Part shown: piece by piece, positions 9,993 to 13,597 of the stretch
Layout of the letters: every line of letters starts with the position of its first letter
How positions within the stretch are numbered: the first letter of the stretch is position 1
Source: Ruegeria arenilitoris
GTDB taxonomy: Bacteria > Pseudomonadota > Alphaproteobacteria > Rhodobacterales > Rhodobacteraceae
DNA length: 64,000 nt
Direction of reading: 5' to 3'
NCBI RefSeq assembly: GCF_013032855.1
Contig: NZ_WQDA01000001.1
Location: 813,501-877,500, forward strand
The notes under the pieces: model-generated
Database searches by the model: none
The model's input: only the letters and a program-made list of their open reading frames with translations
Told to the model about the DNA's origin: nothing
Program-made: the position numbers and the translations under genes

Positions 9993-10385
9993 CTACCGCG
10001 CGACGAATTCAACCCAGGCCCAGGCCATCGCGATGTAAGTGAGGTTGTGCAGGCATTGATCCAGACCGGCGGCCCGCCAAAAGGCGGCCTGATCAGGTTG
10101 CAATTGTTTCTTGTCGGAATAGCTGGCTTTGGCGAAATCGATATTGAAATGCACGATCCACTCAAGCGCACCGATGATCAGAATGAACGAAAGCGGCGCG
10201 CCGAATATCAGGAAAACCACGACTGAACCCACAACATGCACCGCAGCATGCTGTGCGCGCCCGACATGCAGGTACTCCCCCCGCCCAGACAGCATCTTGG
10301 GCGTTTGAAGGTAGAAATCGGCAAACATGTGTTTGATCTGCAGTGCACACAGCAGAAGCAACACAGTGCCAAGTGTAGCAGGCAA
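9993..10385 (-). CDS. DUF3307-family membrane protein
   Basis: A 130-residue protein with three or four hydrophobic segments (LGTVLLLLCALQIKHMFADF, VVGSVVVFLIFGAPLSFILI, YIAMAWAWVEFV). The early K-H-x-x-A-D-F-x-x-Q signature (IKHMFADFYLQ) is what I associate with DUF3307 proteins. The function of this inner-membrane family is not known to me. It is convergent with the Lrp-type gene, with no intergenic bases. The start at 10385 is the longest frame; no clear ribosome-binding site decides it. Confidence 0.75.
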   Translation of the reverse strand: MPATLGTVLLLLCALQIKHMFADFYLQTPKMLSGRGEYLHVGRAQHAAVHVVGSVVVFLIFGAPLSFILIIGALEWIVHFNIDFAKASYSDKKQLQPDQAAFWRAAGLDQCLHNLTYIAMAWAWVEFVAR

Positions 10386-10492: not shown

Positions 10493-13400
10493 TTGCCTAT
10501 CCAAGCGCGATTGCAGTACCGTCGTGCTGCTTTGAGTGCGGCAGGATCGCTGCAAAACAGTTTCGGGTCACTAGTAGGGGCAGGGGCCATAGAACGTTCA
10601 ATTTTTGGATTTATTTGGAAGTATTCCAAGCGTGATCAGCTTGTTCTGCTGGCCGTGACGGCAACTTTGTTCCCGCTGCTGTACCTGACGCTTGAATTGC
10701 CCAAACGCATCATCAACGACGCAATCGGCGCCTCCAGCGAGATCGTGGATGTCTGGGGATACAGTCTGTCGCAGACGACGTTTCTGGTAATTTTGTGCTT
10801 CGCCTTTTTGGCGGCGGTGTTGGCGCATGGTTTGATGAAGATGCGCATCAACACGATGAAAGGCGTTCTCAGCGAACGAATGCTGCGCCGGTTCAGATAC
10901 CAGTTGATCAATCGCGCACTGTTGTTTCCTCAACCCTATTTCGAGCGCGTCAGTCAGGGCGAACTGGTCTCGATGATCACCGCCGAAAGCGAGCCGATGG
11001 GCGGGCTGATGGGCGATGCGATCAGCCAGCCTGTCCTTCAGGCGGGGCAGATGCTGACAATCCTGTCCTTTCTATTCCTGCAAAGCGTCTGGTTCGGATT
11101 GGCTGCTGTCGCGCTGATCCCATTGCAGGCCTGGCTGATCCCGCGATTGCAGCGCCAGATCAACCTGTTGAACAAGCGCCGGATCCAAGAGGTGCGCGTA
11201 CTGGCGGCTCAGATCGGCGAGAATGCAGCAGGCGCGGCAACCCTGCGGCAGAACGGCGGCTGGCGCCATCGCCGAGCGCTGATTTCAGATCAACTGTCCC
11301 GGCTGTTCAGCATCCGGTTCGAGATCTACCAGAAAAAATTCTTCATGAAGTTCATCAACAACTTCATCTCTCAGTTGACTCCGTTCCTGTTCTACCTGGT
11401 CGGTGGTTTGCTGGTTTTGCAGGGGTCAGTTTCGCTCGGTGCTCTCGTGGCCGCGCTCGCTGCCTACAAGGACCTCAGCTCGCCCTGGAAGGAGCTGCTG
11501 ACCTATTACAACCAGACACAGGACATGTCTCTGCGTTGGGAGGTGGTCATCGAACGGTTCGCCCCGAGCGGCATGCTGGATGAAACCCTGTTCGAAGGCG
11601 AGCCCGACAGCCGACCGCACCTGAATGGCCCGATCGAGTTGGAGCAGGTCTCGGTGCGTGATCTGGATGGCAATCAGGTTCTGGATGATCTGAACCTGAC
11701 CTTCCCTGCCGGCAAGACCATAGGGATCGCGGCCCCCAGCGAAGAGGACCGCCGGGCCCTGGCGGATCTATTGACCCGGGAGATCCTGCCAAGTTCGGGC
11801 CGGGTCGAAATCGGGGGTGTTAACCTGTCCTCGCTGCACCAGGCCGTCGTGGCGGCCCGGATCGGTCATGCCACATCGCGACCGGTGATGTTCCAGGGAA
11901 CCGTTGGCGGCAACGTGATGATGCCGATGCAGCTCAGGCCTCTGACCGCTCCACCGGAGGACGCGGACCACCTTGAAACGCTGCGTGCGGGCAACAGCCC
12001 CGATCCCTTCCGGGCCACTTGGCTGGACCCTTCCCTGGCCGGGTTCGAAACGGCCGAGCAGCTGCGCGATTGGTGGTTGAAGCTGATCGACGGACTGGGC
12101 TCCGGGCCCACCTTGTTCCAACGCGGGGCCGAGTTGGGTTTCGATCCTGAAAAACACCCCGACCTTGCTGCCAAGCTGATCGAGCTGCGGCCCTTAGTGC
12201 AGGACGCCGTCAAAAAGGCCGGTCTGGAGTCGCAAGCCCTGATTTTCGACCGCATGACGTACAACGCTGCGCTGCCCGTTGCCGAAAACCTGCTGTTTGC
12301 TGTGCCACGCGTGCAGGTGACTCAAGAGTTGCTGGCCCGGCAGACCGTTTTCCTGGGGCAGTTGCGCGAGTTGGGTCTGGATGAAACACTGGTCGGCCTG
12401 ACACGTGACGTGATCGAAATGCTGCGTCAGATCTTTGGTCTGGACGGGACGGATCACCCGTTGTTCCGCAAGCTGGGTCTCGAGGCCGCCACCTACGAAG
12501 CCGCTGTCGACCTGGTAGAGAGGACCCGGGAAACCGGCGCATCGGGGTTGGACGATGACCAGTTGGCCAGCCTGCTGGCCGTGCCTTTCGTGATCTCGGC
12601 CGAACAGATTGGGCCGGCCTTTTCCGAAGAGCTCAAGAACCGCATCCTCGAACTGCGGCACAGCCATTCCGACAAGTTGATGGAGCGCCTGAACGACGTG
12701 TTCGAGCCGCTGGACCCGGCCACCTTTGCGCCCGGATTGACGGTTATGGAGAATGCGCTGTTCGGCAAGGTCAGCCAGATCGGGGGCGCGCGGTCGGACG
12801 AGGTTCGGAAAGTGATCGCAGACGTGCTGACCGAAAACGGAGCCCGTCCGCTGGTGGTTGAGCTGATCTACGATGTACCGGTCGCGCTGGGCGGGCAGAA
12901 CCTGCCGGCCGCGCTGGCCGAGCCTTTGGCCTTCACCCGCGCGACAATCAAGAAGCCGGATATCCTTATACTGGAAAACGCGCTGGCGAGTTATGGCATG
13001 GACACGCAGGTGGCTGTGTTCAGAAACCTGCGAGAGCTGCTTCCGGACGCCACGATCATCTACCTGAACGAACAGTTCAAGAACCCCGGCGCTTTCGACA
13101 TGTTCGTCGAGATCCGACAGGGGCGCGTAGTGTCCGATCAGGTTCCGTCGGATGTCGAAGGTGACAGTGCAGCCTCGGCGGACCTCACGCGAAAGCTGCG
13201 TGCCTTGGAACAGACGCCGCTGTTTTCGGGGCTGGATCGTCGTCAGTTGCGGCTGCTGGCCTTTGGTGCGCGCTGGTACGAGGCAAAGGCCGGCGAAGTC
13301 GTGTTCCTCAAGGATGACCAGCCGACCGATGGTGCCTACATGATCATCGACGGCGAAGCGGGTCTGTACCTGCCGCAGCCGCCCGAGGAGGATCGGCTGG

Positions 13401-13597
13401 TGACCCGCGTCGGCAGCGGCACCCTGGTGGGCGAACTGGGCTTGATCCGCAAAGAGCCCCGTGCACTCAGCATGGTGGCCGAAACCGATCTGACCTGCCT
13501 GCGTATCGGCGAGGAAGAGTTCCTGGCCGTGGTGGAAAACGATGCTGCGACCGCGTTCAAGCTGTTGCAGGTGATCGCAGGCTATGTATCACGCTGA
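10493..13597 (+). CDS. ABC-exporter-like protein with degenerate nucleotide-binding domain, ~300-residue insert and C-terminal cyclic-nucleotide-binding domain
   Basis: This 1034-residue protein has four parts. Residues about 40-340 form a type I ABC-exporter membrane domain (YFERVSQGELVSMITAESEP; hydrophobic spans around LTPFLFYLVGGLLVLQGSVS). An NBD-like domain starts near residue 380, but every catalytic motif is altered. The P-loop position reads APSEEDRRAL (415-423) with no GxGK(S/T), and the Q-loop has no glutamine (IGHATSRPVMFQGTV). The signature is LGGQN (799-803), Walker B is ILILENA with no DE pair (824-830), and the H-loop position is N859. About 300 helical residues (500-790) interrupt the NBD between Q-loop and signature. 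Residues about 900-1034 are a cNMP-binding domain with GELGLIRKEPRAL. It probably does not hydrolyse ATP normally. No ATG start exists; TTG 10493 is tentative. Confidence 0.85.
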   Translation: MPIQARLQYRRAALSAAGSLQNSFGSLVGAGAIERSIFGFIWKYSKRDQLVLLAVTATLFPLLYLTLELPKRIINDAIGASSEIVDVWGYSLSQTTFLVILCFAFLAAVLAHGLMKMRINTMKGVLSERMLRRFRYQLINRALLFPQPYFERVSQGELVSMITAESEPMGGLMGDAISQPVLQAGQMLTILSFLFLQSVWFGLAAVALIPLQAWLIPRLQRQINLLNKRRIQEVRVLAAQIGENAAGAATLRQNGGWRHRRALISDQLSRLFSIRFEIYQKKFFMKFINNFISQLTPFLFYLVGGLLVLQGSVSLGALVAALAAYKDLSSPWKELLTYYNQTQDMSLRWEVVIERFAPSGMLDETLFEGEPDSRPHLNGPIELEQVSVRDLDGNQVLDDLNLTFPAGKTIGIAAPSEEDRRALADLLTREILPSSGRVEIGGVNLSSLHQAVVAARIGHATSRPVMFQGTVGGNVMMPMQLRPLTAPPEDADHLETLRAGNSPDPFRATWLDPSLAGFETAEQLRDWWLKLIDGLGSGPTLFQRGAELGFDPEKHPDLAAKLIELRPLVQDAVKKAGLESQALIFDRMTYNAALPVAENLLFAVPRVQVTQELLARQTVFLGQLRELGLDETLVGLTRDVIEMLRQIFGLDGTDHPLFRKLGLEAATYEAAVDLVERTRETGASGLDDDQLASLLAVPFVISAEQIGPAFSEELKNRILELRHSHSDKLMERLNDVFEPLDPATFAPGLTVMENALFGKVSQIGGARSDEVRKVIADVLTENGARPLVVELIYDVPVALGGQNLPAALAEPLAFTRATIKKPDILILENALASYGMDTQVAVFRNLRELLPDATIIYLNEQFKNPGAFDMFVEIRQGRVVSDQVPSDVEGDSAASADLTRKLRALEQTPLFSGLDRRQLRLLAFGARWYEAKAGEVVFLKDDQPTDGAYMIIDGEAGLYLPQPPEEDRLVTRVGSGTLVGELGLIRKEPRALSMVAETDLTCLRIGEEEFLAVVENDAATAFKLLQVIAGYVSR

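Follow-up and report, generated by a model that had tools for sequence, protein, structure and literature searches.

The window gene and its domains

We analyzed a 64,000-nucleotide stretch of the Ruegeria arenilitoris genome (contig NZ_WQDA01000001.1, positions 813,501 to 877,500), referred to here as the window, with a focus on a gene encoding a protein that resembles an ATP-binding cassette (ABC) exporter joined to a cyclic nucleotide monophosphate (cNMP)-binding domain. This gene, which we call gene A or the pseudo-ABC gene, is an open reading frame (ORF) of 1,034 codons running from 10493 to 13597 on the plus strand, with a listed TTG start. Its probable start is the ATA codon at 10589 to 10591, which places the gene at 10589 to 13597 and gives a protein of about 1,002 amino acids. 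An exporter-type transmembrane domain (residues 40 to 355; 10610 to 11557), the best conserved part of the family, is followed by the N-terminal part of a degenerate cassette domain containing the former P-loop and Q-loop (residues 375 to 490; 11615 to 11962), an insertion into that domain (residues ∼491 to 785; 11963 to 12847), the C-terminal part of the cassette domain (residues 786 to 885; 12848 to 13147), and the cNMP-binding domain (residues ∼906 to 1034; 13208 to 13594), all on the plus strand.

An earlier note, made by a model from the letters of the sequence, had described the membrane domain as intact and the cassette as followed by a cNMP-binding domain. Both descriptions agreed with the Pfam results, in which ABC_membrane (PF00664) matched residues 73 to 322 with 55.3 bits against a cut-off of 28 and cNMP_binding (PF00027) matched residues 931 to 1017 with 55.5 bits against a cut-off of 27.5. 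ABC_tran (PF00005) remained below its cut-off in the window protein (14.0 bits versus 25; E = 0.08), although the cassette-domain fold is recognizable despite this score. In the fold comparison, the membrane and cassette domains matched the MsbA-like exporter fold, and SUR2B was also listed. The protein matched just four Pfam families at an E value of ≤1, none of them a peptidase, and no C39 peptidase domain was found among them.

The cassette layout, previously described as kept, is thus kept as a recognizable fold, but the insertion at residues ∼491 to 785 had been missed. Two helical modules inside it (residues ∼556 to 640 and ∼712 to 790) are related to each other (hhalign probability, 99.2), and each carries an ENLLFG-like motif; of 80 loci, 70 were taken, L107 was left out because of an in-frame stop, the other 69 were aligned with the window sequence, and 59 of those served for the analysis of the insertion. 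The predicted structure of the insertion has a model pLDDT (predicted local distance difference test score) of 89.7, and a structural search with this model gave no match.

Motif positions in the cassette domain were set by alignment with four ordinary exporters from the same genome, and seven catalytic residues were scored: the Walker A Lys and Ser/Thr, the Q-loop Gln, the signature Ser, the Walker B Asp and Glu, and the H-loop His. None of the seven is kept in the window protein. In the former Walker A motif (A414-P-S-E-E-D-R420-R421, within APSEEDRRA; 11732 to 11755, plus strand), Arg420 stands at the position of the Lys and Arg421 at that of the Ser/Thr; the Q-loop Gln is replaced by Ser462 (11876 to 11878); and the Walker B Asp-Glu pair has become Glu828-Asn829 at the end of ILILEN (residues 824 to 829; 12962 to 12979), all in line with the losses first noted. 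The H-loop His is indeed lost, but the aligned position is Glu860 (13070 to 13072) and not the adjacent Asn859 that had been named. The statement that an LGGQ signature remains was not upheld. LGGQ (residues 799 to 802) aligns just before the signature, and the LSGGQ position itself corresponds to L804-P-A-A-L808 (12902 to 12916), so that the signature is lost in the window protein as well. By these comparisons, the window protein is very likely a pseudo-ATPase; the original proposal of a pseudo-ATPase membrane protein holds for the ATPase residues and is partly supported as a whole.

Motif loss and purifying selection across the family

Orthologues of gene A were present in 54 of 54 Ruegeria-level genomes (the window's own and 53 others), those in the 53 others being 79 to 86% identical to the window protein. 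All 54 genomes also encode a second full-length paralogue, paralogue B, at 50 to 54% identity. Motif loss within Ruegeria was examined in 33 of the 54 orthologues; the former P-loop reads SEEDR in 33 of these 33 aligned sequences, mostly inside APSEEDRRA, and the cassette motifs are degenerate too in 9 aligned rows of paralogue B and 38 rows of lower identity. One Ruegeria genome additionally contains a partial, diverged copy in two fragments with an in-frame stop (L056; G019:C6), which is likely a decayed duplicate.

Beyond the genus, an even sample of Alphaproteobacteria yielded family matches (E ≤ 1e-40) in 132 of its 385 genomes, belonging to 88 of 277 genera, with some of the 132 matches being partial. 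Its distribution is patchy among nearer relatives, with 74 of 148 genomes and 21 of 95 genera positive. Sampling of the phylum gave matches at E ≤ 1e-30 in 36 of 398 genomes, and those in the five genomes outside the class covered only part of the model. Removal of duplicates reduced 127 full-length family ORFs to 106 distinct members. This profile search for full-length homologues and their motifs, an approach proposed in the earlier note, showed that all seven catalytic residues are kept in none of the 106 and that seven members keep five. Of the 106, 48 keep the Walker A Lys and 6 the Ser/Thr (absent in 100); the Q-loop Gln is retained in 19, the signature Ser in 42, the Walker B Asp in 30 and Glu in 43, and the H-loop His in 26. 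The almost universal loss of the Walker A Ser/Thr suggests that Mg-ATP chemistry was lost early in the family and that the other residues drifted later. Homologues with intact Walker motifs, which had been envisaged as possible signs of recent decay or an assembly error, came down to one: L259 (G357; family f156) is the sole member that combines an intact Walker A (GKS) with an intact Walker B (DE), and it has a fused cNMP domain and lacks the Q-loop and H-loop residues. On pSymB of Sinorhizobium meliloti 1021 (L093, 16667 to 19433), the pseudo-ABC frame appears to be broken up into two frames that overlap; a different S. meliloti strain (L084) has the gene in one frame.

The window-gene family is under purifying selection, with a median ratio of nonsynonymous to synonymous substitution rates (dN/dS) of 0.03 to 0.10 by domain. 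Among 30 Ruegeria orthologues, the medians were 0.034 for the membrane domain, 0.097 and 0.049 for the two cassette halves, 0.066 for the insertion, and 0.040 for the cNMP domain (336 to 407 of 435 pairs used after exclusion of pairs with saturated dS). An ordinary exporter analyzed in 25 genomes gave 0.034 for the membrane domain and 0.050 for the cassette. Since its within-genus order is the same, a reversed order is visible at the class level only. There, mean pairwise identity in the family was 0.52 for the membrane domain and ∼0.35 for the cassette (107 sequences), whereas one ordinary exporter gave 0.54 and 0.65, respectively (6 genomes). Such a reversal is expected if the membrane domain carries the function.

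Relatives of ∼325 to 443 amino acids consist of the membrane domain alone, with no cassette domain (L275, L276, and L277 in copper clusters; L261 to L263; and L073 in the window's own genome). The cassette-less relatives of Ruegeria pomeroyi, Leisingera, and Pseudosulfitobacter are encoded next to copper oxidase and cupredoxin-type genes, within annotated copper clusters. In a membrane-domain tree whose outgroup comprised only four and later 3 of 9 ordinary exporters, and from which row L056 was dropped after the first tree, the cassette-less proteins and the pseudo-ABC family form a group separate from the sampled ordinary exporters (support, 0.95).

A near-constant cNMP-binding partner

A cNMP domain accompanies 102 of the 106 members, being fused in 30, encoded by the next ORF on the same strand in 66, and located in a frame overlapping the gene end in 6. 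None was seen in the other 4; for two of these, the contig ends 1.8 and 2.9 kb away. Of the aligned domains, 96 of 96 have the pocket Arg, and the position of the pocket Glu is occupied by Glu in 80, Asp in 15, and Met in 1. In the window protein, the phosphate-binding cassette GELGLIRKEPRA (residues 980 to 991; 13430 to 13465, plus strand) contains the ligand-type residues Glu981 and Arg990, both invariant across 32 A-type rows. The domain likely binds a cyclic nucleotide.

The window's genome encodes 14 class III cyclase domains. When the neighborhoods of 74 class-level loci were surveyed (flanks of up to ∼7 kb, short in some loci), a cyclase was found near the pseudo-ABC gene in 4. In L067, L068, Phyllobacterium, and S. 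meliloti, the gene also has cyclase-like matches or genes in its vicinity.

Linkage to a glycan locus

Among annotated plasmid relatives, the pseudo-ABC gene adjoins glycosyltransferase genes in Rhizobium leguminosarum, Sulfitobacter dubius, and S. meliloti, where they lie upstream on the same strand in the last of these; in Phyllobacterium and Azospirillum, glycosyltransferases are found within ∼9 kb. By tblastn, the 74 class-level loci contained matches to the glycosyltransferases GT-a (GT-a-like; 48 loci), GT-b (47), GT-c (45), and GT-d (GT-d-like; 48), the GT-a and GT-d counts overlapping in part because the two queries cross-match, and to a histidine phosphatase (42), a deacetylase-like protein (30), and a methyltransferase (32). 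The GT-a-like gene lies upstream of the pseudo-ABC gene on the opposite strand in 46 of the 48 loci that have it, and the glycan operon is usually adjacent and divergent to the pseudo-ABC gene in the outgroups. GT-b (E ≤ 1e-60) was detected in 127 of the 385 genomes; 125 of these are among the 132 that have a family match and 2 among the 253 that lack one.

In the window's own genome, the glycan operon lies outside the window at about C1:794,676-801,222 (L269 8677-15223), and its genes overlap or nearly touch. It comprises genes for four glycosyltransferases, a histidine phosphatase, a deacetylase-like protein without a Pfam match, and a Methyltransf_17 protein, and it is conserved across Alphaproteobacteria. 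A peptide-type importer (∼805 to 811 kb) sits between this operon and gene A (823,993). Gene A orthologues and GT-b share a contig in 53 of 54 Ruegeria genomes, 13.3 to 24.9 kb apart (median, 20.0 kb) and on opposite strands in 53 of 53; in the remaining genome they are on different contigs. Gene A thus appears to be part of an ancestral divergent locus that was spread apart by inserted genes. We consider it quite probable, from the linkage, that the window-gene family has a role in an envelope-glycan pathway. No account of the glycan locus was found in the open-access literature searched.

A cNMP-controlled, ATP-independent component?

We estimate a probability of roughly 50% that the window protein, with its exporter fold, works independently of ATP and under the control of cNMP as part of an envelope-glycan system. 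The exporter-type membrane domain would be kept as a dimer, and the dead cassette domains, together with the insertion, would serve as a mechanical adaptor. Cyclic AMP or cyclic GMP, bound by the attached or partnered cNMP domain, would replace ATP as the input and set the state of the membrane domain, with both the ligand and the direction of gating being presumed. The protein would then provide a membrane step under cNMP control, be it a conduit, a flip, or an assembly checkpoint, for what is presumably a glycan substrate, serving the locus of four glycosyltransferases, histidine phosphatase, deacetylase-like protein, and methyltransferase. Comparison across genomes shows support for this proposal in the loss of the ATPase residues, the near-constant cNMP partner, the pocket residues, the glycan linkage, and purifying selection; the class-level conservation of the membrane domain above the cassette, the 14 class III cyclase domains of the window's genome as potential sources of the signal, and the existence of membrane-domain relatives without a cassette, three of them in copper-resistance clusters, also count in its favor. 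The odds that the protein is a conduit or flippase rather than a pure regulator seem about even.

Several observations speak against the proposal. The L259 lineage may still bind ATP, and the Walker A Lys persists in 48 of the 106 members. No cyclase is encoded nearby in 70 of the 74 loci. Seven genomes have the family without GT-b, and the Fisher P value for the co-occurrence of the two (8e-90) counts genomes without phylogenetic correction. Gene A and the glycan operon are no longer direct neighbors in Ruegeria, and the neighbors of paralogue B are different (DUF6478, CPBP, and accD). Moreover, the ordinary exporter likewise conserves its membrane domain above its cassette within Ruegeria.

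The protein may instead move nothing and be a pure regulator or scaffold, its exporter fold anchoring a platform for cNMP sensing by which the glycosyltransferases are recruited or switched. SUR, which regulates a channel, offers a comparable logic, though not a comparable sequence. Such a role would fit the purifying selection on domains from which all seven catalytic residues are gone, the encoding of the cNMP domain by a separate gene in 66 of 106 members, as for a regulatory partner, and the glycosyltransferase linkage. The membrane domain, however, is the most conserved at the class level (0.52 versus ∼0.35), beyond the need of an anchor, and we regard this alternative as possible but tentative. 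Binding of ATP without hydrolysis, with ATP in a structural or sensing role and the cNMP domain providing a second input, would agree with the many relatives that keep a G-rich loop with the Lys and without the Ser/Thr, with the intact Walker A and B motifs of L259, and with the degenerate site of ABCC1, which holds ATP for minutes according to a review (PMC7756269). We find it improbable for the window protein, in which replacements affect the Lys, the Ser/Thr, and two glycines of the P-loop, both acids of Walker B, the Q-loop Gln, the H-loop His, and the signature.

We also strongly doubt that the protein is the dead half of a heterodimer whose intact ABC half-transporter, encoded elsewhere, performs the hydrolysis. 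In known heterodimers, the degenerate protomer still gives the active site a usable signature, whereas no signature is left in the window protein. The window's genome does have other exporters. Exporters combining one degenerate and one active site are known and are treated in the same review (PMC7756269). An intact ABC partner encoded next to the gene was rejected, as no other full-length exporter ORF was present in the 74 loci within flanks of up to ∼7 kb, in a scan that had no positive control. A decaying gene or an assembly error, which the heavy motif loss might suggest, is hardly credible: the same loss is shared by 33 of 33 aligned Ruegeria orthologues (54 found) and 9 paralogue B rows, and dN/dS is 0.03 to 0.10. 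With orthologues in 54 of 54 genomes, recent decay or sequencing error was rejected.

Relation to known systems

ABC exporters are defined by ATP hydrolysis. The window protein differs from MsbA, PCAT1, and TM287-288 in the loss of catalytic residues, the ∼295-residue insertion, and the cNMP domain. CFTR and SUR are ABC proteins that act as a channel or regulator and are in this respect a precedent for an exporter fold with a job other than ATP-driven export, but they retain at least one ATP-hydrolyzing site and are not known to have a cNMP domain.

The best NCBIfam match to the exporter part was TIGR03796 (NHLM exporter; E = 2.6e-30), and the cNMP partner of R. leguminosarum weakly matched TIGR03896 (NHLM/NHLP-associated cNMP protein; 43 bits versus a cut-off of 161). 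Of the curated families, the NHLM exporters come nearest, but the score is far below the cut-off (105.3 bits against 853.3), and membership was rejected. Unlike NHLM/NHLP bacteriocin exporters, the pseudo-ABC family has a degenerate cassette with an insertion and glycan genes as neighbors.

The nearest described design is HetC of Nostoc PCC 7120, a peptidase-containing ABC exporter whose cNMP domain is required for function (PMC10986499) and which, like the window protein, combines an exporter membrane domain, a cassette, and a cNMP domain. HetC has a C39 peptidase, an N-terminal cNMP domain that binds guanosine tetraphosphate (ppGpp), and an essential ATPase residue (PMC10986499). The pseudo-ABC family, in contrast, has lost the ATPase residues, showed no peptidase, and carries its cNMP domain at the C terminus or on a separate protein. 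Plain membership in the HetC family was rejected. The open-access literature searched contained no account of the pseudo-ABC family. A family that retains the exporter membrane domain throughout a bacterial class but not the catalytic residues, almost always with a cNMP sensor as partner, would open two questions to testing: the capabilities of such a membrane domain in the absence of ATP and the processes under cyclic nucleotide control in Alphaproteobacteria. The analysis also flags a widely conserved glycan locus.

Probable initiation at an ATA codon

Translation probably does not begin at the TTG listed as the start (10493). A stop codon in frame lies a few codons ahead of the position equivalent to the ATA in many relatives. 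At the N terminus shared by the family, gene A has the ATA codon at 10589 to 10591, where paralogue B has ATG. In 124 distinct loci (138 surveyed, minus 7 without the motif and 7 duplicates), the codon at this position is ATA in 62, ATC in 15, ATG in 45, and GTG in 2, and 43 of the 77 ATA/ATC loci have an in-frame stop upstream with no ATG, GTG, or TTG in between. Gene A itself is open upstream of the ATA, with three TTG codons. Among 38 close sequences, which were not thinned and may include near-duplicates, the start position is ATA in 34 and ATC in 4; ATA makes up only ∼4% of internal Ile codons (79 of 1,951 in the closest group).

Variation at codon positions 1, 2, and 3 in these 38 sequences was 0.56, 0.54, and 0.53 far upstream and 0.08, 0.02, and 0.37 over codons 2 to 18. 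The third-position bias indicates that codons 2 to 18 are translated, and the coding pattern starts at or just before the ATA/ATC. Codons −4 to −1 also vary mainly at third positions, most sequences having no canonical start there, and may represent either a Shine-Dalgarno stretch or some additional codons. A putative Shine-Dalgarno-like G-rich stretch, GGGGCAGGGG (10577 to 10586, plus strand), precedes the ATA, and GGAG occurs before the ATA at a similar distance in several other genera. The annotated start of the orthologue in Ruegeria sp. TM1040 lies 17 codons further in than the ATA. Initiation at the ATA in gene A is well supported by comparison, and this likely conserved AUA start is missed by automatic annotation. 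The AUU start of E. coli infC, with control through IF3, is a precedent for an unusual initiation codon. A broader scenario, in which an ancient class-wide family swapped ATP for cNMP and, as a cNMP-gated exporter fold, opens for, flips, or licenses a conserved envelope glycan with no hydrolysis while the AUA/AUC start keeps expression low in Rhodobacterales, strikes us as rather unlikely.

Upstream of gene A, a DUF3307 gene (9993 to 10385, minus strand) is its divergent neighbor in the window and also lies beside A-type orthologues of other genera.

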